Assembly: GCA_015231345.1 (NCBI GenBank)
Contig: JADGBV010000002.1
Location: forward strand, 1 to 39,105
Direction of reading: 5' to 3'
Source of the DNA: Planctomycetota bacterium
Lineage (GTDB): Bacteria > Planctomycetota > JADGBV01
Length of the DNA: 39,105 nt
A program made the translations under genes and the position numbers. Positions 14,190-37,165 of this stretch are shown here, piece by piece. Within the stretch, counting starts at the first letter, position 1. Each line of letters opens with the position of its first letter. The notes beneath the pieces are model-generated. The model worked only from the letters and a program-made list of their open reading frames with translations. It had not been told where the DNA came from and did no database searches.

Positions 14190-14220
14190 GATGCGTGCAA
14201 AAATGCCGAGCTAGTTGGGC

Positions 14221-14667: not shown

Positions 14668-14725
14668 GGTTAACTATTATGCCCACAGCCCTAACAAGGC
14701 AAGGGCAATACACAAGGAGTTTTTT

Positions 14726-17570: not shown

Positions 17571-19805
17571 TTACAATCCAGTTTCCTTAAACTCAACTGC
17601 ATCAATATTAAAACCAGCACCATTAACGACTTCCAGTCTCAATATTTTATTGTTTCCACCTTCTACTGTTACATTTGGAAAAGTCACAATCCCTTGTTTC
17701 CCCCAGTTTCCTTGGTGAGTCAGTCCATCAATCACGGCAAGAACTTCACCGTCGAGGCTGACTTGTAAGGCCCCAGGGGTAGAAACGGCACAAAAATATA
17801 AGAAGTCAATATCATATATGCCTGCAGTGACGTTAACCGTATATTCTAACCACTCACCTTTCTTTAGATAGCCAACATTATAACCATTGCTTCCTTTATT
17901 CTTTTTTGTCACATCAACCATATCCTCAGGGCGAAAAGCACCATCTCCGCTCCTTTTATTATCGTCATTAAAAGCGAAGTCTTGACCTCCCTCATCATAA
18001 TGCTCACCTTCAATGAGGCCAGGAATGGTCATAGCGTTACCGCCAAATGGAGTTTGTTCAGGAGCAGGAGGAACACTTTTATGAATATCAAGCCCATAGA
18101 GCTCCACTGGTCCAATAACTGAAGCCAAAGAGATATCAAGCTGTCCGTCAGTTACACTGGTCGAAAAAGTTTCAATAAGTTCTGTGTCTTTGCCTGCTTT
18201 TGCATAAATATCAAAATTGCTACCAACCTGAACTCCTTCAACATCTATGTTGAATACACGTTCACCTACGTTATTATATTTGGTTTCAGCAAAATATAGA
18301 TTCACATCATAATCTCCATTCACTACAGGAACATGATAATCAAAAGCCGTTTTCCTGCGACAGGTACTATACAACTCCATGCCAGTAGTGCCTTCAATAA
18401 TTATTTTATTGCTTCGAGCATCTCCTCCTGCATAAAACCTATCAGGGGAAAACTCCATGCCCGTATCGGATGTAATGGCAGAACCACCACAATTTGCCTT
18501 AAACTTTTCTAGCTTGCTACTCGCTTTAATCTCATCAAGAGCATTTTTTAGTAATTCATAAGAGGCTAATTCGTCTGCAGCTAAGGACTCAATAGCAAGA
18601 GGACTTTTCTCTTTTGGATCGTTAATGATATCGTAAAAATTCCCTGTAATGTAGAGCTTATGCCTTTTATTTCGAGTATGCTGTTTTGCATTGGCATAAT
18701 TGGCAAATTTAGAATACCAGCAATAAATAAAATCCTTTGGATTGCCAATTTCTCCTTTAAGCTGAGGAAGAAAACTGACTCCCTCAATTTCAAGATCAGT
18801 AGGAATAGAAGCATTAGCGACTTCGCAAATGGTTGGCAAAACATCACTAAAGTCAATAAGGTCAAAACATTCGCTGTCTGGCATCACCATTCCATCCCAA
18901 CGAGAAATAAAAGGAACATGAGTCCCATTGTCTTTGGTTTTAGCTTTGCCGCCTTGGTAGGAAGCACCACGAAATTGAGAGGTGATTCCTTCAGATGTTC
19001 CATTATCGCCAGTGAAAATAATAATTGTATTTTCAGCAAGACCAAGTTCTTCTACTTTGGCCACAACTTTTCCTACCATTTTATCCATATAGGCAATCAT
19101 ATCAGCAAAATAGACTTTTTCGCCTTTGCCAAGCTCCCCCTGATAAGTTGGATCCCATTCTTCTGAATCAGGGGTTGGAGTCCATGGAGTATGAGGGAGC
19201 AACATGGGGTAATAGGCAAAAAAAGGAACATCTTTATTCTCTTCGATGAAGTCACAAATAAAGTCACTCACTACATCTGGTCCGTATTCGCCATCATTAA
19301 ACTTATTCACAACTCCATTGTATTCAAGAGTAGGGTTGGAGTACCTAGTGTCGTGTCCATCATTATATGTTGCTCCTAGGGATTGTTGCCATAAGCATGA
19401 CTGTTCAAAACCAAAATGTTGAGCAGAATCACTATCGCTTCCTAATTGCCATTTTCCAGCAATGGCAGTTTTATATCCAGCATTTTTAAAAAGGGTTCCA
19501 AAGCTCACCTGACTTCTGTCAAGATTTCCAAATTTATAGTAATTTGTAGCATTAGATTTGCCAGTCATAATTTTTACACGAGAGGGCGTGCAGACGGGCT
19601 GGGCATGAACATGCTCAAAACGCATTCCATGCGAGGCAAGTTGATTAATATGAGGGGTTTGATAAGATGTGCCGCCGTAAGTTTCAATACATTCATAGCC
19701 TAGATCATCAGCCATAATAAGAACGACATTAGGTCTTTCAGCTGCTAACAAAGGCTGCAGTAAATACAGTAAAGGCAGAAGTGGACTAAGGTATTTTAAA
19801 ATCAT
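17571..19805 (-). CDS. Secreted sulfatase with malectin-like and C-terminal CBM6-like domains (here called gene A)
   Basis: 744 aa; NVVLIMADDLGYECIETYGG; FGly motif CTPSR; malectin-like NCGGSAITSDTGMEFSPDRFYAGGD…; C-terminal KKGEWLEYTVNVTAGIYDIDFLY. Confidence 0.92.
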   Translation of the reverse strand: MILKYLSPLLPLLYLLQPLLAAERPNVVLIMADDLGYECIETYGGTSYQTPHINQLASHGMRFEHVHAQPVCTPSRVKIMTGKSNATNYYKFGNLDRSQVSFGTLFKNAGYKTAIAGKWQLGSDSDSAQHFGFEQSCLWQQSLGATYNDGHDTRYSNPTLEYNGVVNKFNDGEYGPDVVSDFICDFIEENKDVPFFAYYPMLLPHTPWTPTPDSEEWDPTYQGELGKGEKVYFADMIAYMDKMVGKVVAKVEELGLAENTIIIFTGDNGTSEGITSQFRGASYQGGKAKTKDNGTHVPFISRWDGMVMPDSECFDLIDFSDVLPTICEVANASIPTDLEIEGVSFLPQLKGEIGNPKDFIYCWYSKFANYANAKQHTRNKRHKLYITGNFYDIINDPKEKSPLAIESLAADELASYELLKNALDEIKASSKLEKFKANCGGSAITSDTGMEFSPDRFYAGGDARSNKIIIEGTTGMELYSTCRRKTAFDYHVPVVNGDYDVNLYFAETKYNNVGERVFNIDVEGVQVGSNFDIYAKAGKDTELIETFSTSVTDGQLDISLASVIGPVELYGLDIHKSVPPAPEQTPFGGNAMTIPGLIEGEHYDEGGQDFAFNDDNKRSGDGAFRPEDMVDVTKKNKGSNGYNVGYLKKGEWLEYTVNVTAGIYDIDFLYFCAVSTPGALQVSLDGEVLAVIDGLTHQGNWGKQGIVTFPNVTVEGGNNKILRLEVVNGAGFNIDAVEFKETGL

Positions 19806-19887: not shown

Positions 19888-19911
19888 CAATATGGTCGTT
19901 TGTCCATAATT
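19888..19911 (-). promoter_or_regulatory. Operator-like palindrome, copy upstream of gene A
   Basis: Gene-strand AATTATGGACAAACGACCATATTG; 82 nt between it and the ATG of gene A. Confidence 0.75.
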
Positions 19912-19922: not shown

Positions 19923-21350
19923 TTACCTAACTAAAGCTTTTTCAGTTTCAATGGGATCTTCATCCCCCAATTCTGCCAAACGTTTCTTTAATTGAGCCTT
20001 CATTTTTTGAACCACACCTGCATATTCTGGGTTAAGAATTTCATTCTTGAGCTCATAGGGGTCGTTCTCGCGGTTATAGAATTCAAATTCAGGTCGGTGA
20101 TGTAGCTTATGAACCAAGTCTTTTGCATTATCGCTCGTGTTGGCTAATTTTACCCATGACGACCCTATATCATTTCTTGAAGAATCCTCTCCACTAAGTC
20201 TTTTTAGGGCCAATGAGAGAGTTAAGTTAGAAGTGATTCTTTTATAGTTAGGGTTATAGATTAAAGAGAAAGACTTATCGCGAATCACTCGTATAGGGAA
20301 TATGCGCTCATTATTATGAATAATATTGCAGTTAGTGAAAGCTCCGTAGACATACTGATGGACATCCTCAGACTTTCCTTCTAATAACTTCATAAAACTC
20401 TTACCATCACAGTCCCCTTCTGATAGTTTTCCCCCTGCTATCTCAACTAGAGTTGGAGTGATATCTGCAATGGAAATAAGTTCATCAATTTTGGACCCTG
20501 GCTGAATAAGCTCAGGGCAATGTGCCACCAAACCAGTGTGTAGGCCGTTATCATAACAGGTCCATTTAGCAAAGGGAAGTTGAGTTCCCTGTTCACTACA
20601 TACGATAAAAATCGTTTTACGCCAAAGCCCGCGACTTTCAAGCTCGATTCGAACCCTGCCTACCAATGTGTCAAAATTGGAAATTTCGGCGTAGTACCTT
20701 CTCATATTTTCACGTAAGATGGGAGTGTCTAGCCAGTAAGGTGGCACCTCAAGTTTTGAGGCGTCATACATAGAGGAATCCCCAGTTGTAAAAGGTGCGT
20801 GTGAATCATGAGAGGCGATAAAAAGGCAAAAAGGAGAATTGTCTTCAGCACAAGAATCCATGAAATTATTCGCAGCATTCATAAACTCATCATTTTCACC
20901 GTTATTATATTTTGTGGTTCTTTCAGTTTTATTCTTATTAGCTTTGAAACGTTCAAAGGGATATGCTTGTTTTGGCCCAATATGTCCTTTGCCAATTAAA
21001 GCTGTACGGTAACCCAAAGGTTTAAGGTAGTGAGCGATACTTTTAGTATCAGGAGTCGAAGAAGAATGGTTAGCTAGGGTGGTTGTACGCCAAGGAGTTC
21101 TTCCGGAATACAGTTCTTGTCGAAAAGGTGCACACATGGCCACTGTGCAATAGGCATTCTTAAAAATGACTCCTTGGTGAGCAAGTTTGTCTATATTGGG
21201 AGTTTTACAGTCCTTGCCTCCGTAAGCCCCCCAGGTATCACGGCTCATATCATCAGCCAACAGAAATACAATATTGGGCTTCTCTGCGCCATACACGGGG
21301 GCAAGCAAAATAAGGCCGAGAATAAAAATAAATAATCTAAATAACATCAT
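19923..21350 (-). CDS. Secreted sulfatase (gene B), CAPFR active site
   Basis: NIVFLLADDMSRDTWGAYGG…; AMCAPFRQELYSGRTPWR. The track ORF starts at 21440, but the signal peptide starts at MMLFRLFIFILGLILLAPVYGA (about 21350) and the 21440 start would lie inside the palindrome. Confidence 0.9.
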   Translation of the reverse strand: MMLFRLFIFILGLILLAPVYGAEKPNIVFLLADDMSRDTWGAYGGKDCKTPNIDKLAHQGVIFKNAYCTVAMCAPFRQELYSGRTPWRTTTLANHSSSTPDTKSIAHYLKPLGYRTALIGKGHIGPKQAYPFERFKANKNKTERTTKYNNGENDEFMNAANNFMDSCAEDNSPFCLFIASHDSHAPFTTGDSSMYDASKLEVPPYWLDTPILRENMRRYYAEISNFDTLVGRVRIELESRGLWRKTIFIVCSEQGTQLPFAKWTCYDNGLHTGLVAHCPELIQPGSKIDELISIADITPTLVEIAGGKLSEGDCDGKSFMKLLEGKSEDVHQYVYGAFTNCNIIHNNERIFPIRVIRDKSFSLIYNPNYKRITSNLTLSLALKRLSGEDSSRNDIGSSWVKLANTSDNAKDLVHKLHHRPEFEFYNRENDPYELKNEILNPEYAGVVQKMKAQLKKRLAELGDEDPIETEKALVR

Positions 21351-21437
21351 AAATGATACGCTAAAAAATAAGATGATTGTCATGATAATATAATCCTGAA
21401 AATCATACATACAGGCTATTGTAAAAATACATGTAAT

Positions 21438-21461
21438 CAATATGGTCGTTTAGCCATATTG
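21438..21461 (-). promoter_or_regulatory. Operator-like palindrome, copy upstream of gene B
   Basis: Gene-strand CAATATGGCTAAACGACCATATTG; both 8-bp arms perfect. Confidence 0.8.
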
Positions 21462-21575: not shown

Positions 21576-23125
21576 TCAATAGATGACTTCAAACTTGTTC
21601 AAGTTCCACCCTCCACCTGTAGCTTCAATACGCAAGGTATATTCACCGGCAGGCAGGTCGATATAGTGACTCACTGTGCCCCAGGTCTGCCAACCGCCGG
21701 TTGGAGGCCCATCAATACTACCAAGTACAGTTGTGCCAGACATCAGGTTTAATTGAATATTCTGTTGATTAGCGGCATATCGGTAGTCGATACGGTACTG
21801 ACCAGCAAGATCTACGCGAATGGAGTATTCCATCCAGTCACCGGGATCTATCCAACCGATATTTTTTCCTCCGCCTTCATCCTTACAGTTGTTGTTGATT
21901 CCTATTCCGTTCATGGCATTGTAGTTTTCTGCTTCGAATAAGGAAGGAGTCATCGGTGGAGGAGGAATATTGCTGTTATCTTCAACGATTTCAAACCAGT
22001 TGAAATTCCAGCCTCCAGCGTTTGCCTCTATGCGTAAAGTCAGTTCGCCGGCAGGCAGTTGTACATAGTGACTTACCGTATCCCAGGTTTGCCAGCCACC
22101 TGTTGGAGGACCGTCAATACTCCCCAGGACTGTTGAGCCTGACATCAGGTTTAATTGAATATTATTTTGATTGGCAGCATATCGGTAATCGATACGGTAT
22201 TCTCTAGCAACATCAACTCGAACTGAATATTCCATCCAATCTCCATTGCTTATCCAGCCAACATTTTGTCCGCCGTCAATATCCTGACAGTTGCTGGTGA
22301 GAATCCCGTTCATGGCATCATAATTTTCTGCCTCAATTTTAGCAGGAACTGCTCGTGGTGCTTCAGATATTTCAAGCCAGTTCAGGTTCCAGCCACCACC
22401 CGTAGCCTCGATACGCAAAGTATATTCACCAGCTGGCAAGCTAACATAGTGACTTGCCGTATCCCAGGTTTGCCAACCACCGGTTGGGGTGCTGTCAACA
22501 CTGCCGAGCAAGGTCGTTCCGGACAATAGATTCAGCTGTATATTATTTTGCTTGGCAGCGTATCGGTAGTCAATGCGATAATCGCCAGCAAGGTCAACTC
22601 GGATAGAATACTCCATCCAATCGCCAGCACCAATCCAACCAACATTTTGTCCGCCGCCAATGTCTTGGCAGTTATTGGTAAGAATGCCGCTCATTGTATC
22701 AAAATCCTCCGCTTCAATTTTAGCAGGAACTAGAGGAGCCGCTGCATTTTCATTAACAAATTCAAGCCAATTGAAGTTCCAATTAGCTCCGGTGGCCTCG
22801 ATGCGAAGAGTGTGATCGCCAGCTGGTAAGTCAACATAATGACTCACGGTTTGCCAGGACTGCTTACCACCAGTTGCAGGGCTATCAATACTGCCTAGGA
22901 TGGAAGCCCCCAATTTCAAGTCAAACAAGATATTCTCTTCTAGAGAAGCCACTCTATAGTCAACACGGTACTGAGTAGGAATATCAACACGAATAACGTA
23001 TTCAAGCCAATCGCCGGCATCAATCTTATCAACATTTTTCCCGCCATTAGCATCCATGCATCTTTTATTGATGCCCATTCCACTCATTCCTAGGTAATCT
23101 TCCGCTTCAATTTTAGCAGGGACAG
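21576..23125 (-). repeat. Array of four ~380-bp tandem intragenic repeats encoding CBM6-like domains
   Basis: Recurring nucleotide blocks (e.g. ccaggtttgccaaccaccggttgg, gcatatcggtagtcgatacgg) and matching protein repeats. Confidence 0.9.
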
Positions 23126-26100
23126 GAATGGGGTCGTAGGTGCATTCTACAGAGTAGATACTCTCCTCGCCGTTCAAATCAACTGCTGTAACCGCAAAAA
23201 AGTAACTATTGTTTATCAGGTCAAGTTCACTGATTGTGCTGCTTGTAACTCCAGCTGGCACCATGACCTTATTCTGATATTGGTATTGCTGAGGAAAAAA
23301 TTGAATATCTCGTGACTCCGTACCCCAGTAGACATAATAATGAGAGAGGTCTGTATCGTCTACCTCATCCCAGCTGACTGTGTTGGTGTCAGACTCAAAG
23401 ATTGGATTCTCTGGCTGAACGATGACAAAACACCTCTCTAGACTATTATTGCTAATATCAAGAGTAAGCACATCTATATCGTTCTGAAGCTCTGTCACAA
23501 TGGCTTGATTGTTTCCGGCTACATCATTCTCTTCGCTAATGTCTGTCGCCAAATCATAAAGTTCGAAAGTGTCACCATTTAGGTTCAGCTTCCATTTCTT
23601 ATTGTCAATATTCTTCCTAACCCCAGCAATTTTGGTGTTATTAGGTTTAACGTAGAAGAAACTTCTATCTGTCGATTCTAATGAAGGATTTTGCAAAAAT
23701 GGCAATAAGTTAATGCCGTCAATAACTCTGTCTTGCGGCAGCTCTATTTCATTTATGGCAGCAAAGGTGGGCAGTAAATCAATGGTGGATGTGATTTCAT
23801 CGGACACTGAACCAGCTGGTATCATATTCGGCCATTGCATGACACACGGCACCCTCTGTCCGCCTTCCCATGTTGAGAATTTCCCATCTCGTAGGGGGAA
23901 TGCTTTTCCGGCACTATCACCCTTGGAGAGCCATGGACCGTTATCGGAAGTAAAAACTACGAGCGTATTGTCCTCCAGTCCATTTTCTCTAAGAGTCCGT
24001 AACACTTCTCCCACACCCCAATCAATTTCCGTAATAATATCACCATAACGGTAATTCTTGGAACTGTACCGATCGGATGTGTTCTTGAACTCGTCCCTGC
24101 AATAAAGAGGGATATGAGGCATGGAGTGAGCTAAATAGAGAAAGAATGGTTTCCCTTCTTGTTTGCTTTGCTCAATAAAAGCCTGAGCTTCATTTGTATA
24201 CTTTTGTGTAAGATAGACCTGATCTACCGGCTGCTCAATAACTTCCGTATTACGGAATAGAGGAGTGCTTTTTCCGTTAAGTACATAGCCTCCCATGTCA
24301 TTGCTATATGGGACTCCATAGTAATAATCAAAGCCATTGTTTGTTGGTAGAAATTTGGGATGATCACCTAAATGCCATTTACCAATAGCAGCAGTATTAT
24401 AGCCTTTCGTTTTGAGCATATCTGCAACGGTGACTTCCTCTGGGGCGAAACCTTTGGCTGACTGAGGAAAAATAACGTTGGTTAAGCTCGACCTGGCAGG
24501 GTAACGACCGGTCAGCAGTGCTGCCCTTGAAGGTGTGCACACACTCGAGGCTACATAAAATTCGGATAATTTTACACCCTTATCTGCGATAGAATCAATA
24601 TTGGGTGTTTCAATTTTTTCATAACCCTGCTCGTCATTTGGGGTCCAAAAACATCCGACATCGTCATAGCCTTGGTCATCAGTAAAAATAACAACAATAT
24701 TAGGCTCAGCGGGTGGCTCAGGGGGATGACTAATGTTAATAGCAAAAAGTTCAACGGTATCCACAACCGCTGTAAAGGATATTTCAAGTTTGTTGTCCGT
24801 TACAGTTGTCGAAAATGTTTCAATACACTCTGTTTCTTTGGGTACTTTTGCCAAGATATCATAATTTGTCGCTACAGAAAGGCCTTCGATGTCGATATTA
24901 AAAACTCGATCGCCAATATTGTTATGTTTTGTCTCGGCAAAGAATAACTCTACATTATACTCACCGTTTGCCATGGGAATGAAATAACTAAGATCAGATC
25001 CCTTTCGGCTTCCAGTATACAATTCTGCATTAGCAGTACCGGCAATTGTTTTACTATTTGTCGGTGTATTTCCGCCATCGTAAAACCTGTCAGGGGCAAA
25101 TGTAATGCCACTATCAGACTCAACAACAGAACCACCACAGTTAATAGAGAATTGTTCGACTTGGCTTTCAAGAATTATATCGTTGAGAGCATCATTTAAC
25201 ATGGTGTATGAGGCTTGTTCTGCGAGATCTAGAGAATTGATATCAAGAGGTGTTTTTTCATTTGGGTCAGCAACAACATCATAAAAATTACCCGTTATAT
25301 ATAGCCTGTGTGTTTTGTTTCTAGTATACTGTTTGGCACTGTCGTATACGGCAAATTTAGAATACCAGCCATAAATCCAATCCTTTGGCGTGCCCTCTTC
25401 CCCTTTTAACTGAGGAAGGAAACTGATGCCATCAATTTCAACATCAGTAGATAGTGGGACATCACCAGCTTCACAAATCGTTGGTAAAATATCGCCAAAG
25501 TCAATCAGATCAAAACACTCGCTGTCTGGATTGATCACACCATCCCAACGAGCTACAAAAGGAACGTGCGTTCCTCTATCTTTTGTAAATGACTTACCGC
25601 CTTGATAAGGCTGACCTCTATATTGGGAGGTGATTCCCAGTGCGGTCCCATTATCACCAGTAAAGATGATTAATGTATTTTCCCCTAAGCCTAGTTCTTC
25701 TACTTTGGCAACGACTTTACCAACCATCTTATCCATATAGGCCACCATATCTTCAAAGTAGATCTTATCACCACCTGCTTGAACAATTTCATTAACCTGG
25801 CCCCACTCCTCAGAATCCGGTGTCGGAACAAAAGGGCTGTGGGGAAGCATCATAGGGTAGTAAGCAAAAAAGGGTACATCCTGATTTTCTTCAATAAAAT
25901 CACAAATATAGTCATTGACGATATCTGGGCCGTACTCACCACTCGTGTAATCAACGAGACCTGCATCATGATATTGCAGGAGGGGATTAGGGTACCTGTT
26001 GTCTTGGCCACCATATGTTGCTCCACGGGACTGTTGCCATAAGCAAGATTGATCAAAGCCGAAATGCTGAGGAGAGTCTTCTTCGGATCCCAGTTGCCAC

Positions 26101-26471
26101 TTCCCAGCAATCGCTGTTTTATAGCCGGCATTTTTGAAAAGTGTTCCAAAACTGACCTGACTTCTTTCAAGCGATCCGAATTTATAGTAATTTTTACGGT
26201 TAGAAATACCGGTCATGATTTTAACACGAGATGGCGTGCAAATCGGTTGAGCGTAGCAGTTCTCAAAGCGCATTCCTTGAGTCGCAAGAGTATCGATATA
26301 TGGGGTCTGGTAGGACTCTCCGCCATACTTTGTAATGCATTCTATGCCCAGATCATCGGCCATAATCAATATGACGTTTGGCTTTGATGTATTGGCAAAC
26401 GATACATGAGATTGGATTGTTATGAGTGCGCAGAGCATCCATACTATTGGTTTGAAATGATGAATTATCAT
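21576..26471 (-). CDS. Giant secreted protein (gene C): sulfatase + malectin-like + second sulfatase + FN3-like linker + four CBM6-like domains
   Basis: 1631 aa. First catalytic domain with AQPICTPSR; malectin-like INCGGSVVESDSGITFAPDRFYDGG; second catalytic domain NIVVIFTDDQGYDDVGCFW with ASSVCTPSRAALLTGRYPARSS; four C-terminal AEDY/AENYDAMNG…GDWMEYSIRVD…LPAGEYTLRIEATGGGWNLNW units. Confidence 0.93.
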   Translation of the reverse strand: MIIHHFKPIVWMLCALITIQSHVSFANTSKPNVILIMADDLGIECITKYGGESYQTPYIDTLATQGMRFENCYAQPICTPSRVKIMTGISNRKNYYKFGSLERSQVSFGTLFKNAGYKTAIAGKWQLGSEEDSPQHFGFDQSCLWQQSRGATYGGQDNRYPNPLLQYHDAGLVDYTSGEYGPDIVNDYICDFIEENQDVPFFAYYPMMLPHSPFVPTPDSEEWGQVNEIVQAGGDKIYFEDMVAYMDKMVGKVVAKVEELGLGENTLIIFTGDNGTALGITSQYRGQPYQGGKSFTKDRGTHVPFVARWDGVINPDSECFDLIDFGDILPTICEAGDVPLSTDVEIDGISFLPQLKGEEGTPKDWIYGWYSKFAVYDSAKQYTRNKTHRLYITGNFYDVVADPNEKTPLDINSLDLAEQASYTMLNDALNDIILESQVEQFSINCGGSVVESDSGITFAPDRFYDGGNTPTNSKTIAGTANAELYTGSRKGSDLSYFIPMANGEYNVELFFAETKHNNIGDRVFNIDIEGLSVATNYDILAKVPKETECIETFSTTVTDNKLEISFTAVVDTVELFAINISHPPEPPAEPNIVVIFTDDQGYDDVGCFWTPNDEQGYEKIETPNIDSIADKGVKLSEFYVASSVCTPSRAALLTGRYPARSSLTNVIFPQSAKGFAPEEVTVADMLKTKGYNTAAIGKWHLGDHPKFLPTNNGFDYYYGVPYSNDMGGYVLNGKSTPLFRNTEVIEQPVDQVYLTQKYTNEAQAFIEQSKQEGKPFFLYLAHSMPHIPLYCRDEFKNTSDRYSSKNYRYGDIITEIDWGVGEVLRTLRENGLEDNTLVVFTSDNGPWLSKGDSAGKAFPLRDGKFSTWEGGQRVPCVMQWPNMIPAGSVSDEITSTIDLLPTFAAINEIELPQDRVIDGINLLPFLQNPSLESTDRSFFYVKPNNTKIAGVRKNIDNKKWKLNLNGDTFELYDLATDISEENDVAGNNQAIVTELQNDIDVLTLDISNNSLERCFVIVQPENPIFESDTNTVSWDEVDDTDLSHYYVYWGTESRDIQFFPQQYQYQNKVMVPAGVTSSTISELDLINNSYFFAVTAVDLNGEESIYSVECTYDPIPVPAKIEAEDYLGMSGMGINKRCMDANGGKNVDKIDAGDWLEYVIRVDIPTQYRVDYRVASLEENILFDLKLGASILGSIDSPATGGKQSWQTVSHYVDLPAGDHTLRIEATGANWNFNWLEFVNENAAAPLVPAKIEAEDFDTMSGILTNNCQDIGGGQNVGWIGAGDWMEYSIRVDLAGDYRIDYRYAAKQNNIQLNLLSGTTLLGSVDSTPTGGWQTWDTASHYVSLPAGEYTLRIEATGGGWNLNWLEISEAPRAVPAKIEAENYDAMNGILTSNCQDIDGGQNVGWISNGDWMEYSVRVDVAREYRIDYRYAANQNNIQLNLMSGSTVLGSIDGPPTGGWQTWDTVSHYVQLPAGELTLRIEANAGGWNFNWFEIVEDNSNIPPPPMTPSLFEAENYNAMNGIGINNNCKDEGGGKNIGWIDPGDWMEYSIRVDLAGQYRIDYRYAANQQNIQLNLMSGTTVLGSIDGPPTGGWQTWGTVSHYIDLPAGEYTLRIEATGGGWNLNKFEVIY

Positions 26472-26546: not shown

Positions 26547-26570
26547 CAATATGGTCGTTTAGCCAAACTA
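26547..26570 (-). promoter_or_regulatory. Operator-like palindrome, copy upstream of gene C
   Basis: Gene-strand TAGTTTGGCTAAACGACCATATTG; proximal half perfect, distal half degenerate. Confidence 0.72.
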
Positions 26571-26823: not shown

Positions 26824-27985
26824 TCAATAGATCACTTTAAACCAGTTCAAGTTCCACCCTGCTCCAAGTGCTTCTATGCGCAAGGTGTGTTCGCCGGCTG
26901 GTAAGTCGATATATTGACTCACCGTATTCCATGTCTGCCAGCCACCGGTTGGAAGAGCGTCAATAGTGCCTAGAACTGTAGTGCCTGATATGAGATTAAA
27001 TTGCGCATTTTGACTATTCGCAGCATATCGGTAATCGATACGATATTCTCCGGCAACATCTACTACAATGTCGTATTCCATCCAGTCACCGGCATTGACC
27101 CAGCCAATATTCTTCCCACCGTCAATATCCTTGCAATTGTTATTGATTCCCACTCCGCTCATTGCCTTGTAATCTTCTGCTTCAAACAGAGAAGGAGTTA
27201 TTGGTGGCGGAGGTGTATTGCTGTCATCCTCGACGATTTCAAACCAGTTCAGATTCCAGCCCCCACCTACGACCTCAATGTGCAAGCTTATCTCACCAGC
27301 GGGCAAGGTTACAAAATGACTAGCCGTATCCCATATTTGCCAGCCACCGGTTGGGGCGGCGTCAATATTTCCAATAACTGTCGTTCCATACATCAGGTTA
27401 AGTCGCATATTATTTTTGTTAGCAGCATATCGGTAGTCGATACGAAACTCTCCTGCATGTTTGACTCGAATATTGTATTTCATCCAATCACCGGTATTTA
27501 TCGAACTAACCTTTTGCCCGCCGTCAATATCATCAGCTCCACTGATGATAACACCGCTCATTGTGTCGTAATTTTCGGCTTCAATTTTAGCTGGAACGGC
27601 CTCTGCGACCTCAACTACTTTAAACCAGTTTAGGTTCCAGCCTCCACCGTTTGCCTCTATGCGCAAGGTAGATTCTCCTGCAGGCAAAGCTACATAGTGA
27701 CTTGCCGTATTCCAGATTTGCCAACCACCGGTTGGGGCGGCGTCAAGACTTCCGAGTACCGTTGACCCTGATATGAGGTCCAGTTTTATGTTCTTTTGGT
27801 TAGCAGCATATCGGTAGTCGATGCGATACTCCTTAGCATAATTCACTTTAATGGTATATTCCATCCAGTCTCCGGCATCTACCCAGCCGATATTTTCTCC
27901 ACCATCAATGTCCTTACAACTGCTGGTTAGAATGCCGCTCATTGCTTCATAATTCTCAGCTTCAACAGTAAAAGGGAAAGAAATT
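26824..27985 (-). repeat. Array of three ~385-bp tandem intragenic CBM6-like repeats
   Basis: Repeats within gene D that are also closely similar to those in gene C. Confidence 0.9.
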
Positions 27986-29952
27986 TTCTCTTCTATCGTG
28001 ATGCTTACTGTAGCTAGTTCAGAGTCCAGTTCGCCGTCATTCACCATAAAAGAGAACTCATCGCTGCCGGAATAGTCTGCATTTGGAGTGTATGTTAATG
28101 TTGGTGGATCCCCAGAGAGAACTCCATGAGCTGGAGTGGAAACAAGGATGTAAGTCATTTTGTTGCTGTCAACGTCACTGCTGGTTAACTCAATGATTTC
28201 CGGAGAGCTCCCTAAGATTGATATATTTTGTTCTTCAGCAACAGGAGCGTCGTTAACGCTTTTTACTTTGATGCTCACGGGAGCTACGTATAACATATCA
28301 CCATTACTATCTTTTGCTTCATATTCAAAAGAATCTTCACCAACGAAATTGTTATAGGGAGTGTAAGTCAAGTTGGGAGCCTCCCCTGATAAATTGCCCG
28401 ATGAAGGTTGTGACAATACTGTAAAAGTCCACCCTGTGCTATCGACAAGTTCATTTTCATTATCGAGCATGCCAAGAGTAATGCTTTTTGCAATATCTTC
28501 CTTGAGTTTAACGCGAACTTCTCCTGTTTCTCGACTGCGAATTGCCATCTCTGTTGCGATGGGATCTGAATCATTCAATTCAGCTAAGCGAACGAAAAGT
28601 TGTTGTTTTAATTCATTCACAGTGTCTGCATACAAAGGATTATCTATCTCATTTGTAAGTTCATATGGGTCATTTTCCAGGTCGTAAAGTTCAAACTCCG
28701 GTCGGTGGTGAAGTTTGTAAACTAAAGCCTCTTCTCTCTCAGTTTTAACAGGTAATATGGCCCATGAAGCTGCAGTATTAGGATTCTTAGGGATTTTGCC
28801 ATCATCAAGATAGTTAAGGGCGCCCCCAATGATTTGATTTGATGTACGCTCTGTATAATTAGCGTTGTAAATGAGAGAAAATGATTTATTACGAATAACA
28901 CGGATAGGGAAAACTCTGTTATCGTTTCCCGAAATATTACAGTTAGTAAAGGCTCCATACACATAATCATTAATGACTTGCTCCTCTCCCTTCATCATAT
29001 TCAGGAAGCTTTTTCCGTCACAGTCAATGGTTTCTACTGATCCGCCTGCAGCCTCAACTAATGTAGGTGTAATGTCAGTGATAGCAACTAGTTCATCTGA
29101 AACAGTCCCTGGTTGTGTTACACCAGACCAGTGAGCGATCAAACCGCTACGCAAACCATTCTCATAACAGGTCCATTTGGCGAAAGGAAGAGCTGTTCCT
29201 TGCTCTCCACAAACCATGAAAATTGTGTTTTCCCAAAGGTTTCGATTTTCTAGTTCAGCTCGAACTCGTCCAACCAACTCATCGAAGTTAGTGATTTCGG
29301 CGTAGTAATTGACCATTTCTGCACGGGTTTCTGGTGTGTCTACCCAGTAAGGAGGAACAATTAATTCCTCAGCATTATAAGCCGAAGGATCACCATCTTT
29401 GTATGGAAGGTGTGCATCATGAGATCCAATAAATAGACAGAATGGCTTTTCTTCGCCTTCAGCGGTGCATGAATCAAAAAGCTGAGAGGCTGCATCTAAA
29501 AATTTATCATTATCATCTGAAAGCTCACTACTTCCACTAATTTTTGTGAAGGGGTAAGAATCAGATGGGCCTACGTGACTTTTTCCTGTCAAAGCGACTT
29601 CATATCCCAAATCTTGGAGATAGTGAGCGATACTTTTGGTTCCTTCCGCAGAGTGGGAGTGATTGGATAACGTTCCGGTACGCCATGGTGTGCGTCCGCT
29701 GTAGAGTTCCTGTCTGTAAGGTGCACACATGGCAGTTGTGCAATATGCACGATCAAATTTCAGGCCATCATCTGCAAGTCTATCGATATTAGGCGTTTTG
29801 CAGTTAACGCCTCCATATGCTCCCCAGGTATCGCGGTTAATGTCGTCGCCAAGAACAAATACAATATTTGGTTGATACGCTGCTACAGTGGATGGTGCAC
29901 CTATAACAGCTCCCAGCATAAATAAAAATTTTACAAAACACTTAACATTCAT
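26824..29952 (-). CDS. Secreted sulfatase (gene D), CAPYR active site, with two cadherin/tandem-95-like domains and three CBM6-like domains
   Basis: 1042 aa; AMCAPYRQELYSGRTPWR; LTYTPYNNFVGEDSFEYEAKDSNG and LTYTPNADYSGSDEFSFMVNDGELDS; three CBM6-like repeats. Confidence 0.92.
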   Translation of the reverse strand: MNVKCFVKFLFMLGAVIGAPSTVAAYQPNIVFVLGDDINRDTWGAYGGVNCKTPNIDRLADDGLKFDRAYCTTAMCAPYRQELYSGRTPWRTGTLSNHSHSAEGTKSIAHYLQDLGYEVALTGKSHVGPSDSYPFTKISGSSELSDDNDKFLDAASQLFDSCTAEGEEKPFCLFIGSHDAHLPYKDGDPSAYNAEELIVPPYWVDTPETRAEMVNYYAEITNFDELVGRVRAELENRNLWENTIFMVCGEQGTALPFAKWTCYENGLRSGLIAHWSGVTQPGTVSDELVAITDITPTLVEAAGGSVETIDCDGKSFLNMMKGEEQVINDYVYGAFTNCNISGNDNRVFPIRVIRNKSFSLIYNANYTERTSNQIIGGALNYLDDGKIPKNPNTAASWAILPVKTEREEALVYKLHHRPEFELYDLENDPYELTNEIDNPLYADTVNELKQQLFVRLAELNDSDPIATEMAIRSRETGEVRVKLKEDIAKSITLGMLDNENELVDSTGWTFTVLSQPSSGNLSGEAPNLTYTPYNNFVGEDSFEYEAKDSNGDMLYVAPVSIKVKSVNDAPVAEEQNISILGSSPEIIELTSSDVDSNKMTYILVSTPAHGVLSGDPPTLTYTPNADYSGSDEFSFMVNDGELDSELATVSITIEEKISFPFTVEAENYEAMSGILTSSCKDIDGGENIGWVDAGDWMEYTIKVNYAKEYRIDYRYAANQKNIKLDLISGSTVLGSLDAAPTGGWQIWNTASHYVALPAGESTLRIEANGGGWNLNWFKVVEVAEAVPAKIEAENYDTMSGVIISGADDIDGGQKVSSINTGDWMKYNIRVKHAGEFRIDYRYAANKNNMRLNLMYGTTVIGNIDAAPTGGWQIWDTASHFVTLPAGEISLHIEVVGGGWNLNWFEIVEDDSNTPPPPITPSLFEAEDYKAMSGVGINNNCKDIDGGKNIGWVNAGDWMEYDIVVDVAGEYRIDYRYAANSQNAQFNLISGTTVLGTIDALPTGGWQTWNTVSQYIDLPAGEHTLRIEALGAGWNLNWFKVIY

Positions 29953-30007: not shown

Positions 30008-30031
30008 CAATATGGCTATTCAGCCATATAG
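30008..30031 (-). promoter_or_regulatory. Operator-like palindrome, copy upstream of gene D
   Basis: Gene-strand CTATATGGCTGAATAGCCATATTG. Confidence 0.75.
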
Positions 30032-30119: not shown

Positions 30120-31538
30120 TTATTTTTTATATGTGTTATGGAAATCTTCAAGGACTTCAGCCTCGTGCTCTTCCATTTTTTTGCTTAAGTGCATTGCGAT
30201 TTCCTTTTTCTCTTCAATCAGATTACGGCTTTCGGAAATATCGCTTTCTAGGTTATGCAGTTCACTTATATCTTTATGGGTTCTGAGTTTCCATTTGCCG
30301 TAGCGGACAGCTTCCACCTTTTTGCCTCTCCAGTAGTACAAGTATTCGTGGGGAGTCTTGGCTCCATTCTTGCCAGCCATCAGGTCGAAAATATTTTTGC
30401 CATCTATGGTGCGATCAACAGGGACCGTACAGTCAGCAAGAGTTGCTATGGTTGGTAGTAAATCCATAGTTGAACTGATTTCGCTACAAACTTTACCGGC
30501 TGGGATTTGGCCTGGCCAACGCATGAGACAGGGTACACGTTGTCCACCTTCCAAGGTATTGAACTTGTATCCTCTTAATGGTTTGGCGCACCCGCCTTTT
30601 TTGCCTAGATTCCAAGGGCCATTGTCGGAAGTGTAAATAAGTAGGGTGTTTTCGTCGAGTTGATTTTCTTTGAGGGCTTTCATTAAACGGCCTACGTTGA
30701 AATCGATTTCTTCGACCGTATCACCGTAAGGTCCCTGTTCACTTTTGCCTCTGAATTTCTCAGTGGCATAAAGGGGAATGTGAGGCATGGTGTGGGCCAG
30801 ATAGAGGAAGAAGGGTTTATTCTTATTGTTTTCGATAAAGCGTATGGCTTCATCGGTGTAGCGTTTGGTGAGAGTGCTTTGATCTGCTGGAAATTCGATG
30901 ACTTCTTCATTCCTCATAAGGGGTGAGCGACGCTTGTTTTCACCCTTGTTTGGGTAGTAAATGCCCTGATTGATTTTTTCTATGCTTGCTCCATCTCTAA
31001 GATTAACATCTTTGGAGAGGGTTGGGTTTTTAAAGAGGCTCATGTCATTGCTGTAGGGGATACCGAAATAACTATCGAAGCCATGTTGTGTGGGTAGGTA
31101 TTCTTTCTTATGGCCGATGTGCCACTTACCGACACATGCGGTGGCATATCCTTTTTGCTTAAGTAATTCTGCTATGGTGATTTCATTTTGGGGAAGCCCA
31201 TTCGTGCTTGTAGGAAAGAGAACGCCGGTAATACTGGTTCTTTGGGGGTATCGTCCGGTGAGTAGGGAGGCTCGTGAGGGAGAGCAGACCGAATTGGCCG
31301 AATAAAAATCGGTAAAGCGAGTGCCTTCTTTTGCAATTTTATCGAGATTGGGTGTCTTAATATTAGGAGAACCAAAAGAGCCTAAATCTTGGTAGCCTTG
31401 GTCATCAGTAAAAATAATAATGACATTGGGTTGGTCTGCTTTTGCTGTGCCAATTTGCGCGAAGCTGATGCCAGCAAGTAGAATGAGAAAGGCGGATTGT
31501 AGCTTGCTGCAGATGAATTTTAGCTTGTTTTTAGGCAT
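30120..31538 (-). CDS. Secreted sulfatase (gene E), CSPSR active site
   Basis: NVIIIFTDDQGYQDLGSFGSPNIKTPNLD; ANSVCSPSRASLLTGRYPQR. Start placed at MPKNKLKF… (31538) because a signal peptide follows; the track ORF extends to 31616. Confidence 0.92.
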   Translation of the reverse strand: MPKNKLKFICSKLQSAFLILLAGISFAQIGTAKADQPNVIIIFTDDQGYQDLGSFGSPNIKTPNLDKIAKEGTRFTDFYSANSVCSPSRASLLTGRYPQRTSITGVLFPTSTNGLPQNEITIAELLKQKGYATACVGKWHIGHKKEYLPTQHGFDSYFGIPYSNDMSLFKNPTLSKDVNLRDGASIEKINQGIYYPNKGENKRRSPLMRNEEVIEFPADQSTLTKRYTDEAIRFIENNKNKPFFLYLAHTMPHIPLYATEKFRGKSEQGPYGDTVEEIDFNVGRLMKALKENQLDENTLLIYTSDNGPWNLGKKGGCAKPLRGYKFNTLEGGQRVPCLMRWPGQIPAGKVCSEISSTMDLLPTIATLADCTVPVDRTIDGKNIFDLMAGKNGAKTPHEYLYYWRGKKVEAVRYGKWKLRTHKDISELHNLESDISESRNLIEEKKEIAMHLSKKMEEHEAEVLEDFHNTYKK

Positions 31539-31720
31539 TTTGGGGCTCCCAGTATGATATAAATTTACTGTCTTATACGCTGTTTCTAGAGATTCTGGAC
31601 AAAAAAAACTGAACATGAGAAATTTACCTCTCTTTTCAGTTTGCTTGCATTTTTTGGCATTTAAGAGTTTTGCTGCGTTATTGACCTATTCCTGGTAGGA
31701 AAGGACTTAGATCGCCATGA

Positions 31721-33151
31721 TTACTTCTTTACTTTCCTTCCTTGCGGACGGTTTGGATTTAATAATTCAAGTGCCTTCTTTAAGCGATTGGCAATTTCAG
31801 GGTATTTGTCTATGATATTCTTGCTCTCACCAATATCTTCTTTCAAGTTATAGAGAGATGGACTATTTGTGTCTCTTTGAGTCTTCTTTGTTACAAATTT
31901 CTCTACTTTATGATATTTCCAATCACCACTTCGAACAGCCCTTTGGCCATAGAAGAAATATTTATGAGGAGAAACAGCATCTTTGACTCCCATGAGTAAA
32001 TCCAAGATATTCTGTCCATCTAGTGCCATTTCTGGTAAATTTGCACCTGCAATTTGAGCAATAGTTGGATACAAATCCATGGAAGTTGCTATTTCATTGC
32101 AAATACTTCCTGCGGGAATCTTATTGGGCCATCGAACGATGGCGGGGACTCGTTGTCCTCCTTCAAAATTTGTCATTTTTCCTTCAAACAAAGGAAGTGC
32201 ACTTCCACCATTTTTGCCTTTAATCAACCAGGGGCCATTATCAGAGCTAAATATGACGATGGTGTCATCTGCTATTCCAAGCTCATCTAGGTGATCCAGA
32301 ATACGGCCGACATTGTAGTCTATTTCTTCTATGACATCGCCGTACAAACCACGTTGGCTTTTGCCCTTGAAATCTGGAGATGCAAAGAGAGGAGTGTGGG
32401 GCATGGAGTTAGCCAAGTAGAGAAAAAATGGATTTTTCTCTTTTACAGACTCAGAGATAAAAGTAATACTTTCGGAGGCAAATCTTTTAGTGATGGTTGA
32501 CTGGTCTGCAGGAAACTCGATCACTTCTTGGTTTTGCATCAGAGGGACCTTGTTATTAAAATTCTTAAGAGCTTTCTTGTCAGTTTTCAGAGCAGCAAAG
32601 GCTTTTTGCAATATTTCCTCCGACATGCCTTCACGCCATAGACAATCCTCTGCATATTTCGAAATGCGCGAGGGAGACATATCATTACTATAGGGGATAC
32701 CATAATATGAATCAAAACCTTGATTGGTTGGTAAAAATTTCACATCATCACCCAAATGCCATTTTCCTACAGCTTTAGTCTTATAGCCCACTGTTTTGAG
32801 AGTTTCGGCGATGGTCACATGCGCAGGGTTTAAGCCATTATTGCCCTTATTTGGAAAGAAAACGCCACCTACACCTACTCGTTGAGGGTAACACCCAGTG
32901 AGAAGAGCAGCCCGGGAAGGAGAGCATACGGAAGAGGCAACGTAGAAATCTGTAAATTTCATTCCCTCTTTGGCCATTTGATCCACTCGAGGTGTTTTGA
33001 TATCGGGAGAACCATAACATCCCAAGTCCTGATAGCCTTGGTCATCATTAAAAATAATGATGACGTTCGGCTGAATATCCCCATATGCTAATAATGAAGA
33101 CAGGCATAAAATAAGAATTGTTATCTGCTTGATGCTCTTTGATGTATGCAT
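31721..33151 (-). CDS. Secreted sulfatase (gene F), CSPSR active site
   Basis: 476 aa; NVIIIFNDDQGYQDLGCYGSPDIKTPRVD; ASSVCSPSRAALLTGCYPQR. Confidence 0.92.
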   Translation of the reverse strand: MHTSKSIKQITILILCLSSLLAYGDIQPNVIIIFNDDQGYQDLGCYGSPDIKTPRVDQMAKEGMKFTDFYVASSVCSPSRAALLTGCYPQRVGVGGVFFPNKGNNGLNPAHVTIAETLKTVGYKTKAVGKWHLGDDVKFLPTNQGFDSYYGIPYSNDMSPSRISKYAEDCLWREGMSEEILQKAFAALKTDKKALKNFNNKVPLMQNQEVIEFPADQSTITKRFASESITFISESVKEKNPFFLYLANSMPHTPLFASPDFKGKSQRGLYGDVIEEIDYNVGRILDHLDELGIADDTIVIFSSDNGPWLIKGKNGGSALPLFEGKMTNFEGGQRVPAIVRWPNKIPAGSICNEIATSMDLYPTIAQIAGANLPEMALDGQNILDLLMGVKDAVSPHKYFFYGQRAVRSGDWKYHKVEKFVTKKTQRDTNSPSLYNLKEDIGESKNIIDKYPEIANRLKKALELLNPNRPQGRKVKK

Positions 33152-33250: not shown

Positions 33251-33274
33251 CAATATGGTCAATTGGCCATATTG
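33251..33274 (-). promoter_or_regulatory. Operator-like palindrome between divergent gene F and the histidine kinase gene
   Basis: Gene-F strand CAATATGGCCAATTGACCATATTG; both 8-bp arms perfect; central region also near-palindromic (GGCCAATTGACC). Confidence 0.8.
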
Positions 33275-33428
33275 ATTTAAAGTGCATAATTTCATATATT
33301 AAAGCATGAGCAGAAGGATAATACTATAAGAAACAATCTCCCTGTCTCAAGAATTATATTTCGCTTTTTTTCATTTTTCATTATTATAATCTCATCTTTC
33401 TTATCCACAGCCCCTTCTTGATGGTGTT

Positions 33429-35381
33429 TTGAAAACGTCCACTTACATAGCCGGTCTTTCTACTTTATTCATTCTATGTGCCTTGGCACTGTATTGCCTC
33501 AAGTTTATAACACACTCCACAACCTCTCTTAAGCAGAGTATAGATATTATTCAGAGCGAGCTCGAGCAATTACCTCACGAAAGTCAGAACCACATACCCT
33601 GGACACTGGGGTACCGTAGTCTATCAGCCCCCACACCTGATAAATCCAATATTATTGAAATTACTTTCGCTAAAAAAGCTAAAGTTGATCTTATAGCCAT
33701 TATGCCGGCAACTTATACTACCAACGGAAGAAACCTCATGTCTTTTGGTTTTCCCGAAAATTTCATTCTCGAAGGCATTTGTGATGATGGAAGTACGACA
33801 TTAATCGCTGATTATGGCACAAGTCTCTACCCTACACCCGGGATAGAACCCCAATTATTCCCATGTTCTCGTGCAAAAATGATAAGTGGTTTGCGCTTAA
33901 CAGTCACCCACTACCCCAAGAATCCTACTTGGTGGGACTCTTCTCACGTCCTTGCTCTCAGTGAAATATATGCCTTTGAAGGCGAATGGAATGTTAGTCT
34001 AAATGGTGAAGTTAAGGCCAGCACGAGTAACGACTTCTACTATGTCTGGTCAGAGAAGTGTTTGGTGGACGGTTTTTCGATTTTTTCTCCCATTAATATA
34101 AAGTCCTTTTCTCCTCTAGGCAGCTCATTTACCCATAAAGAGACCTGCAAGTATATTTTCGATTATGGAAATGAAGTTGAAATTGACGAAATGAGATTAT
34201 GGCCTGTTATTCATTCCCTTCAGCATAATTACCCACCTGCGAGTGGCTTGGGTTTTCCTCTTGAATTTTCTCTGGAAGCATCAAGTTCAATTGATTTTAA
34301 CGATGCTCAAGTCATCTATGAAAGCCCAGAAAATTTCCCTAAACCAGGGGCGAACCCCTATATGTGTAAAGTCAAACCTACTGAAGCCAGGTATTATAGG
34401 TTGAACTTATCAGAAGGACTTATTGATCACCGAAGTGGATTTAAGAAAATAGAACTTGCAGAAGCTCAGCTGCTTCAGAAAGGAAAAGTGATGATCACAG
34501 ACTCTGAGGTACAAATGATAGCCGAAAATAAGAACAGAAAGAATATCAAAAGACAATATGCTGCAAATTTAACGGATGGTTATAGCAATGGCGGAATCAT
34601 TTTGCCACTAAGACTCTGGGTAGAGCAATTCACTCGACGAGTCCAACTTAAGAAACAAATGGGGAAACTGCAATTGGACTTACAATTGGCCCAAAGACAA
34701 GAGCGCGAACGTCTTCTATTCAGCATCATTGTTAGTATTACTCTTATTACCATTTTAATACTCGCTATCTGGCTGGTGCGATTGATTGCTGCTAGACAGT
34801 GGACTCAAATGCGCGAGCAAATAGCCAATGATCTTCATGATGAAATAGGCGCAAATATGAGCAGTGTAGCTCACTCCACTGAGCTGGTTCTTGAAAGTGT
34901 GACGCCTACCAAAAAGATACATGAACTTCTCAGTAATGTTATTCAAACAGCAAGGACCACTGCACAGCAAACGCGACAAATTATCCGTTTTCTCGAAAAA
35001 GATAACAAGAATAGTGATTTTATCGATGACCTAAAGCAAATATCTCCGCAGATTCTTGGGACTATCCCTAGTCACTTCTCCTTGCATGATACAAAATCCT
35101 TCAACTCACTTAGTATAAAAGCCCAATGGCATTTACTGCTTTTCTATAAAGAAGCATTAAATAATATCATAAAGCATGCCAAGTCCGAGAATGTAACAAT
35201 TACGACTAAAGCCGTTAAATCTCACCTTCAGATGACTGTTTCGGATGATGGCTGTGGCCTTCCAGATCCGGCACCTTCTTTACTTCATCTTGAAAAGAGG
35301 GCAAATGAGCTTAAAGGAAGACTTCAAATTGAAAGTCAACCTGGTCAGGGAACTCAAATCACTTTACTCTTTTCTCCTTAA
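33429..35381 (+). CDS. Membrane sensor histidine kinase, HisKA_3 (NarL/ComP) type, with ~400-aa extracytoplasmic sensor region
   Basis: 650 aa; TTG start; N-terminal TM, large periplasmic segment, TM (LLFSIIVSITLITILILAIWLV), DLHDEIGANMSS H-box, HATPase motifs (EALNNIIKHAKS, VSDDGCGLP, GQGTQITLLF). Confidence 0.9.
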   Translation: MKTSTYIAGLSTLFILCALALYCLKFITHSTTSLKQSIDIIQSELEQLPHESQNHIPWTLGYRSLSAPTPDKSNIIEITFAKKAKVDLIAIMPATYTTNGRNLMSFGFPENFILEGICDDGSTTLIADYGTSLYPTPGIEPQLFPCSRAKMISGLRLTVTHYPKNPTWWDSSHVLALSEIYAFEGEWNVSLNGEVKASTSNDFYYVWSEKCLVDGFSIFSPINIKSFSPLGSSFTHKETCKYIFDYGNEVEIDEMRLWPVIHSLQHNYPPASGLGFPLEFSLEASSSIDFNDAQVIYESPENFPKPGANPYMCKVKPTEARYYRLNLSEGLIDHRSGFKKIELAEAQLLQKGKVMITDSEVQMIAENKNRKNIKRQYAANLTDGYSNGGIILPLRLWVEQFTRRVQLKKQMGKLQLDLQLAQRQERERLLFSIIVSITLITILILAIWLVRLIAARQWTQMREQIANDLHDEIGANMSSVAHSTELVLESVTPTKKIHELLSNVIQTARTTAQQTRQIIRFLEKDNKNSDFIDDLKQISPQILGTIPSHFSLHDTKSFNSLSIKAQWHLLLFYKEALNNIIKHAKSENVTITTKAVKSHLQMTVSDDGCGLPDPAPSLLHLEKRANELKGRLQIESQPGQGTQITLLFSP

Positions 35382-35390
35382 ACTTATAGC

Positions 35391-36035
35391 ATGAGTGATC
35401 TTATCCGTATCATCATCGTTGAGGACAATGCTGCATACGCCAAATCCTTGCAAGACATTATCGAGCTTACAGATACTCTGACGTATATCCAGCATTATAG
35501 CAAGGGCGAGGACTGCCTTAAAGATTTACAAAGTGAGCACCCTCCTCAAGCAGATATTATTTTATTAGATTTGCATCTTCCTGGAAATAATGGACTTACC
35601 TTTGTACCAAGTTTTCAGCGATACGCGCCAAACTCACGCATTCTTGTATTAACACAGAACGATGATTATCATACCACTTTGGAAGCTATACGCCTTGGCG
35701 TATCTGGATACATACTTAAAGATGCCAAGTTGGATGAAATAAGAACAGCGATTCGCGATGTTCACCAGGGAGGCTGTGTGCTTGATCCGCAATTATCCAG
35801 GTTTGTTCTGAAAACCCTCACAAGCATACCAACTGAAAAGGAGAATCCTTTAAGTAAGCGTGAGGTGGAAGTGCTGGAGCTTTTAGCAATGGGCTATGTC
35901 AAAAAGGAGGTCGCTTCACAACTCGACCTAAGTTATCGAGCTGTAGCTCTGTATACCGAAAATATCTATAAAAAACTCCAAGTGCCAAATGTCGCTGCAG
36001 CCATTGCAACTGCGATACGTAAAGGGTTAATTTGA
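35391..36035 (+). CDS. LuxR/NarL-type response regulator
   Basis: 214 aa; receiver (IIIVEDN, DIILLDLHLPG, GYILKDA) and C-terminal HTH (PLSKREVEVLELLAMGYVKKEVASQLDLSYRAVALYTENIYKKLQV). Confidence 0.95.
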   Translation: MSDLIRIIIVEDNAAYAKSLQDIIELTDTLTYIQHYSKGEDCLKDLQSEHPPQADIILLDLHLPGNNGLTFVPSFQRYAPNSRILVLTQNDDYHTTLEAIRLGVSGYILKDAKLDEIRTAIRDVHQGGCVLDPQLSRFVLKTLTSIPTEKENPLSKREVEVLELLAMGYVKKEVASQLDLSYRAVALYTENIYKKLQVPNVAAAIATAIRKGLI

Positions 36036-36076: not shown

Positions 36077-36135
36077 GCCACAGAGCTCACAGAGAACTCA
36101 GAGAAAAGCTCTGAGGCCTCTGTGAGCTCTGTGGC
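36077..36135. repeat. Long palindromic CACAGAG-type hairpin element
   Basis: GCCACAGAGCTCACAGA-GAA-CTCAGAG-AAAAG-CTCTGAG-GCC-TCTGTGAGCTCTGTGGC: 17-bp outer stem plus 7-bp inner stem. Eight A residues lie 5' (an oligo-T on the minus strand). Confidence 0.85.
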
Positions 36136-36270: not shown

Positions 36271-37086
36271 ATGAATCATAAATTCTCTCTTATTGAACTA
36301 CTGATTGTGATGGCCATCTTGGCAATCCTTTCATCCTTGCTATCTCAATCATTATCAACAATGAATTACAAGGCAAAAGCTATTGTCTGCACCCAAAAGG
36401 AACACTCCATAAGCGGTGCAATGTCCATGTTTGCTAATGATAATGAAGACCGAATCCCTTCTTCCATTAAAGAACTGACCGAAAACGATGTGACATCTAA
36501 GTGGTTTTCATGGGATGATCGCCTGTTTTTCTATGATGGCCGGGAGGTTGATGCAAAAACATATGGCAACTCATGGGTAAAATATGATCAGTCGAATGCT
36601 GACTTTCATCAATTATACGCATGCCCTATGGACCCGTCATATGAATTCGTAAACGCAGGAGGAAACCCGATTTGTCGTCGATCATATGCTGTTAATGCTG
36701 GAAAAGAGGAGGTTAACAATATGAGCAAGAAAAGGGGGGTAGTGAAAAGTCTATGGAATACAGATAAGTATATAGAAGGATGGTCTATGGAATTCAGCCA
36801 AATATCCGATCCTTCAGACTCGATTCTACTGATTGAACGGAATGACCCCCAGAAATTCCTAGGCTCAAGTTGGGGAGATACTATCGCAGCTAACGAGCTT
36901 CGCGATGGGAGTATCTCTTTAAATCCTCTAAAACATGGCATACCTTACGAGCTCAACTTCGCCATGTGCGATGGAAGTGTAAGGTTCATGAGCTTTTCGG
37001 ATACCAATGGTAGCAGGAGTGATATAAATATGCTTGATTCTGGCTCAAATGATTTTAAGGAAACGATGTGGGATTGCAGGGATTAG
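36271..37086 (+). CDS. Pseudopilin-like (type II secretion/type IV pilin G-type) protein with H-X-DG-type C-terminus
   Basis: 271 aa; FSLIELLIVMAILAILSSLLS prepilin N-terminus; C-terminal HGIPYELNFAMCDGSVRF. Confidence 0.85.
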   Translation: MNHKFSLIELLIVMAILAILSSLLSQSLSTMNYKAKAIVCTQKEHSISGAMSMFANDNEDRIPSSIKELTENDVTSKWFSWDDRLFFYDGREVDAKTYGNSWVKYDQSNADFHQLYACPMDPSYEFVNAGGNPICRRSYAVNAGKEEVNNMSKKRGVVKSLWNTDKYIEGWSMEFSQISDPSDSILLIERNDPQKFLGSSWGDTIAANELRDGSISLNPLKHGIPYELNFAMCDGSVRFMSFSDTNGSRSDINMLDSGSNDFKETMWDCRD

Positions 37087-37165
37087 GGTCGGTACTTGAA
37101 CGGACCTAATTTATGATTCTCGCTTTAACTTTTTTCCCGTGGCGTCAATACCTAAGGAAGGCACT

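Follow-up and report, generated by a model that had tools for sequence, protein, structure and literature searches.

A putative two-component system and a repeated dyad in a sulfatase gene cluster of a Planctomycetota bacterium

In the polysaccharide utilisation loci of Bacteroides, hybrid two-component systems serve as local glycan sensors that switch the glycan-degradation cluster. The locus analysed here, the whole of a 39,105-bp contig (hereafter the window) from a Planctomycetota genome of 4.14 Mb in 588 contigs that is 69% complete, would be alike in that a local glycan sensor switches a glycan-degradation cluster, but differs in that its histidine kinase (HK) and response regulator (RR) are separate proteins and in its NarL-type rather than AraC-type output. 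A Reg_prop/Y_Y_Y sensor was not found in the window system. Nearer to it is the PVC bacterium Pontiella agarivorans, in which HisKA_3 kinases (PF07730/PF02518) and response regulators lie near glycoside hydrolase (GH) and sulfatase genes and co-regulation was proposed (PMC10880615), so that this kind of system is already known. Neither an operator nor a sensor fold or regulon is given there (PMC10880615), whereas the window holds five dyads that are confined to the cluster and define a candidate regulon. The window pair shares with NarX-NarL, DesK-DesR and VraS-VraR the HisKA_3/HATPase_c kinase and the REC-GerE regulator with conserved phospho-acceptor residues, but its sensor consists of two discoidin/CBM32-like domains and its candidate site has an N8 instead of a short spacer. 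In a limited search of the open-licence literature we found no paper on the operator, regulon or HK sensor architecture of such systems; the new parts here are the sensor architecture and the site geometry. PVC genomes carry about a hundred sulfatases each, and none of the papers found gives an operator for one of these genes.

Gene layout of the sulfatase cluster

The window carries six sulfatase genes, A to F, on the minus strand, and the HK gene followed by the RR gene on the plus strand, divergent from sulfatase F (Table 1). Each of the seven PF00884 domains keeps the C/S-x-P-x-R formylglycine site, always as C-x-P-x-R (A, C1 and C2 CTPSR; B CAPFR; D CAPYR; E and F CSPSR), which identifies the genes as a sulfatase cluster within a genome that has 103 PF00884 matches. 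The domains form three subfamilies that are 22-33% identical to one another, namely A with the first domain of C (C1; 67% identity), B with D (58%), and E, F and C2 (42-52%), and the identities of A to C1 and of B to D indicate that the cluster grew by duplication. The two sulfatase domains of C thus come from different subfamilies within one 1631-aa protein. The start of sulfatase B was moved to ATG 21383 because the mechanically called start, TTG 21440, falls inside the gene's own dyad. Sulfatase E has no dyad of its own and follows F closely, and is therefore probably co-transcribed with F as part of the same operon.

Table 1. Positions of the genes, domains and operator-like dyads in the window
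Feature	Position	Strand	Description and basis
Sulfatase A	17571..19805	-	PF00884; with malectin and CBM6
Dyad A, operator-like	19888..19911	-	2 mismatches; 82 bp from ATG
Sulfatase B	19923..21383	-	PF00884; start corrected to ATG 21383
Dyad B, operator-like	21438..21461	-	Exact match; 54 bp from ATG 21383
Sulfatase C	21576..26471	-	PF00884; 1631 aa, two sulfatase domains, malectin, four CBM6
Dyad C, operator-like	26547..26570	-	3 mismatches; 75 bp from ATG; distal half degenerate, proximal exact
Sulfatase D	26824..29952	-	PF00884; with CBM6 and Ig-like repeats
Dyad D, operator-like	30008..30031	-	1 mismatch; site end 55 bp from ATG
Sulfatase E	30120..31616	-	PF00884; about 105 bp after F
Sulfatase F	31721..33151	-	PF00884; CSPSR motif; subfamily with E and C2
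Dyad F, operator-like	33251..33274	.	CAATATGGTCAATTGGCCATATTG; exact match; divergent HK/sulfatase F region
HK	33429..35381	+	650 aa, TTG start; Pfam, hydropathy, H-box
HK sensor domain 1, discoidin/CBM32-like beta sandwich	33606..34028	+	Residues ~60-200; AF2, Foldseek
HK sensor domain 2, discoidin/CBM32-like beta sandwich	34119..34523	+	Residues ~231-365; AF2, Foldseek, CBM32 4lks profile
RR	35391..36035	+	214 aa; REC + GerE (NarL/FixJ type); 9 bp after HK
RR GerE helix-turn-helix	35847..36008	+	Residues 153-206; Pfam, alignment of clade RRs

Dyads upstream of the sulfatase genes

A preliminary description of this DNA reported the HK, the RR and, in their promoter region divergent from sulfatase F, a single palindrome with perfect arms around an N8 spacer. 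All three lie where it placed them and the arms CAATATGG-N8-CCATATTG are exact, as they also are in dyad B, but the palindrome proves to be more extended and one of five copies, before A, B, C, D and F, and its spacer is not free, columns 8-15 being conserved (p=0.00025 in a simulation from which site C was omitted for its near identity to B). The copy at 33251 can be read as 12-nt arms with no gap, its 24 bp being 92% self-complementary. With up to three mismatches the pattern occurs at five sites in the window where 0.19 would be expected, a count that was not reached in any of 100 shuffles. Every predicted sulfatase transcription unit is preceded by one dyad, whose edge lies 54-99 bp upstream of the start codon and whose orientation relative to the gene is the same in all five cases. 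The half nearer the gene, CCATATTG, does not vary among the dyads (5/5) and the distal one is degenerate; read on the gene strand, the consensus is CAATATGGCTAAACGACCATATTG.

Conservation ends sharply at the 24-bp edges, beyond which the upstream DNA of the sulfatases is otherwise little alike, with short AT-rich matches, so that shared promoter ancestry does not explain the dyads. Because sulfatases of three different subfamilies have the dyad, and essentially only the dyad, in common in their upstream DNA, the element has the character of a cluster-specific operator. A genome-wide search at up to one mismatch returned copies within the window only, and the core TNTGGNNNANNNNCCATATTG, which was derived from the same five sites on which it is counted, occurs exactly at five places in the 4.14-Mb genome, all of them in the window. 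The dyad is absent from the three loci of the genome that carry paralogous HK/RR pairs (contigs C110, C575 and C144), and the one available genome of the same family has neither a dyad at up to one mismatch nor an HK match. Consensus promoters overlapping the dyads are at background level (60 vs 48 expected). The preliminary description had held that occurrence of the motif in genomes lacking the pair would speak against its proposal; of the 391 other phylum genomes searched, 12 contain one copy at up to one mismatch, compared with 7 for the reversed control, and no genome contains two or a cluster of them; these single copies are chance matches. As far as comparison of sequences can tell, the dyads almost certainly constitute a local operator regulon of the sulfatase cluster.

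The sensor kinase, its relatives and the signal

Pfam and hydropathy order the HK into a transmembrane segment, an extracytoplasmic sensor, a second transmembrane segment, HisKA_3 (34.9 bits, cut-off 24) and HATPase_c (40.1 bits, cut-off 26.4), with an H-box DLHDE at residues 468-472 in which H470 is the histidine; it is a HisKA_3 (DesK/NarX-type) histidine kinase. The RR, with Response_reg at 75.1 bits, GerE at 54.7 bits, the acidic pocket E-D-N and D60, T88 and K110 present, is a response regulator of the NarL/FixJ type. The sensor region has no Pfam match, the cut-offs for discoidin, CBM32 and F5/8 type C included, and its AF2 model (412 residues, 65 sequences, pLDDT 89, pTM 0.90) contains two beta sandwiches, the strands of which supplied the bounds of domain 1. 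Foldseek places them closest to CBM32, F-type lectin and neuropilin discoidin domains, with a target TM-score of 0.54-0.58 and an rmsd of about 3.5 A against single CBM32 domains; superposition of both domains at once is poor (query TM ~0.2). A profile built from homologs of the HK finds CBM32 4lks by sequence (E=2.4e-4), as well as F-type-lectin-like chains. The sensor thus models as a tandem discoidin/CBM32-like fold, for which a carbohydrate ligand is plausible and, one step further, a sulfated one might be supposed. An HK-sensor-like module is carried as well by PSCyt/PSD1 (DUF1549/DUF1553) cytochrome-type proteins at four loci (L018, L025, L026 and L027), the one at L025 with an F5/8 type C match in the module, which points to a discoidin-like domain common to sensors and these proteins.

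We hypothesize, with moderate confidence, that the local two-component system controls the sulfatase cluster through the dyads. The membrane HK would bind a glycan or glycan fragment via its two tandem discoidin/CBM32-like domains outside the cytoplasm and phosphorylate the adjacent NarL-type RR, a dimer of which would bind the 24-bp dyad 54-99 bp upstream of the starts of A, B, C, D and F(-E). By binding in the divergent region between F and the HK, the RR may also adjust its own operon. Binding of the RR to the dyads, the glycan ligand and the autoregulation are what we infer from these features, and activation by the RR is weakly favoured by the fixed dyad orientation and by the site lying upstream of the likely promoter. 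A resident HK/RR pair with five matching sites offers a testable rule for linking sulfatases with a signal and, through it, with a glycan.

It is a serious possibility, though one to which we give somewhat less than even weight, that the RR acts through the dyads while the HK responds to some cue other than a sulfated glycan, be it a desulfated product, contact with a surface or the general carbon status. The ligands of discoidin-like domains are varied, and members of the HK family outside the clade of the window HK adjoin genes for TonB receptors, GH31, GH97 and planctomycete cytochromes. The window HK itself, however, belongs to a sulfatase-rich clade, and its presumed targets are sulfatases with CBM6 and malectin domains. 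The clade comprises 26 rows of the HK tree (SH-aLRT 98), in which the window HK sits on a long branch, so that its exact place is unsure. A sulfatase lies within 3.5 kb of the HK at 10 of 24 clade loci compared with 2 of 51 outside (Fisher p=1e-4), and sulfatases make up 20% of the genes in HK loci of the clade against 3% elsewhere, an excess to which sulfatase-rich host genomes may contribute; in P. agarivorans they account for 4.6% of the predicted ORFs (PMC10880615), as against the 20% of clade-locus genes. Over the HK family (77 relatives) sulfatases are no commoner near the HK (13/145 genes at up to 1 kb) than further away (33/440; Fisher p 0.59), nor do they decay with distance within the clade, where the locus-level excess alone holds.

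Full-length HK relatives at E<=1e-20 were found in 5 of the 391 other phylum genomes sampled. The genome of the window itself has three paralogous HK/RR pairs. Two of them lie next to a sulfatase gene, for which a crude gene-boundary estimate with about 100 sulfatases gives a chance of ~0.7%, and the third has one elsewhere on its contig. A further related RR, the fourth, stands instead beside a gluconate-dehydrogenase subunit on contig C284.

Site geometry and the acting regulator

Unlikely, though by no means negligible, is the reading in which the dyads are operators of another factor, unlinked or off the contig (a PadR-, ArsR-, LacI- or MarR-type dimer), with the HK and RR genes just adjoining the cluster, perhaps as a further target. 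Operators of PadR-type repressors have the form ATGT-N8-ACAT, which the N8 dyad with its ATGG/CCAT arms resembles, and with the contig ending at 39105, 3 kb past the RR, in an incomplete genome, a further regulator could have been missed. Against this, Pfam finds no such gene on the contig, where the RR is the only gene with a sequence-specific transcriptional regulator domain; a sigma-54-type AAA gene at 13212-14189 showed no helix-turn-helix and adjoins a flagellar gene. The core-identical sites of the genome all fall in a 14-kb stretch next to the HK and RR genes, which favours a local regulator, and the confinement of the regulon to one cluster likewise argues for a resident one. The RR is probably the regulator that acts through the dyads.

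The strongest point for a different factor is spacing. The NarL-family dimer ComA of Bacillus subtilis resembles the proposed RR as a GerE dimer with an inverted-repeat site upstream of each target promoter, but its site TTGCGG-N4-CCGCAA is strict for N4, tolerates N5 and is unbound at n=8, and the canonical spacing of the family is shorter than here (PMC4797271). The window dyad has N8 between its best-conserved arms, with conserved inner YY/RR columns that allow the reading ATGGYY-N4-RRCCAT, which is post hoc and symmetric only as purine/pyrimidine; an N8 dyad would need these inner contacts or another mode of binding, and this mismatch is the main reason why we keep a different transcription factor as a minority prospect.

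For the local pair speaks a locus of Puniceicoccaceae, L081, whose HK falls in the same 26-row clade and whose HK/RR pair is flanked by four sulfatase genes in one direction and by two in the other (574-15373). Its 288 bp between a sulfatase operon and HK-RR-sulfatase contain TCTGTCCC-N8-GGGACAGA and GCTGTCCC-N8-GGGACAAT against 0.03 expected, one of them centred about 63 bp before a sulfatase. The dyad letters and RR recognition helices differ from those of the window while the N8 geometry is the same, a coincidence that by our estimate would arise by chance close to one time in twenty for a given recurrent dyad, 21 gaps having been scanned. As one case among 24 clade loci, L081 lends independent but single support, by analogy, to the local pair as the regulator. 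The closest HK/RR relative, L055 (60% identity in the RR helix-turn-helix region), has no comparable site near the HK; N8 dyads are not enriched across the family, where doubled raw counts for exact 7-bp arms are best explained by N runs pairing with N, and palindromes upstream of HKs do not differ from those in other divergent regions.

The suggestion of the preliminary description that the pair regulates the sulfatases therefore stands in part: it gains from the intact pair, the shared operator before every sulfatase unit, the RR as the only recognised sequence-specific regulator on the contig, the carbohydrate-binding-like sensor fold, the sulfatase-associated clade and the analog at L081, and is weakened by L055 and by an N8 unlike ComA-type spacing (PMC4797271).

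Action of the palindromes in RNA, as 5' leader hairpins or terminators, would suit their uniform orientation 54-99 bp upstream of start codons but is very improbable and was rejected, as no pair is changed on both sides (the right arm is invariant and the left drifts), there is no Rfam match and no T-run follows the dyads. Equally remote is that they are functionless leftovers of promoters duplicated together with the sulfatase genes, as the kinship of A with C1 and of B with D might suggest, given that the similarity stops sharply at the 24-bp edge and the dyad crosses three subfamilies, the most similar copies being those of B and C, although these two genes are not sisters.

More speculative, and in our estimate doubtful, is a wider reading from two instances, the window and L081, by which a PVC clade would pair tandem discoidin-sensor HKs with NarL-type RRs that read N8 repeats of locus-specific letters, each pair serving one private sulfatase cluster. 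Should the N8 geometry prove to be a property of the RR clade, it could be used to predict operators beside many uncharacterised HK/RR pairs, and L081 is a good second test case for N8 dyads in this position. A GH97-HK-RR operon on contig C575 (L041), whose HK is of this family too, has a strong inverted repeat TAATGTTATCAGGT-N12-14-CTGATAACATTA close to its start (3138-3183), a candidate operator of that HK/RR pair with other letters and another spacing.

Downstream of the RR, positions 36271-39105 encode a protein that resembles pseudopilins, with a weak N_methyl match, and a CBM6 protein that is truncated where the contig ends, with no dyad near either gene. Just 3' of the RR, at 36077-36135, lies an inverted repeat with 27-nt arms, GCCACAGAGCTCACAGAG...CTCTGTGAGCTCTGTGGC, whose half unit CTCTGTGNNCTCTGTGGC has 23 matches in the genome at up to one mismatch compared with 0 for the reversed control, which marks it as a dispersed REP-like element.
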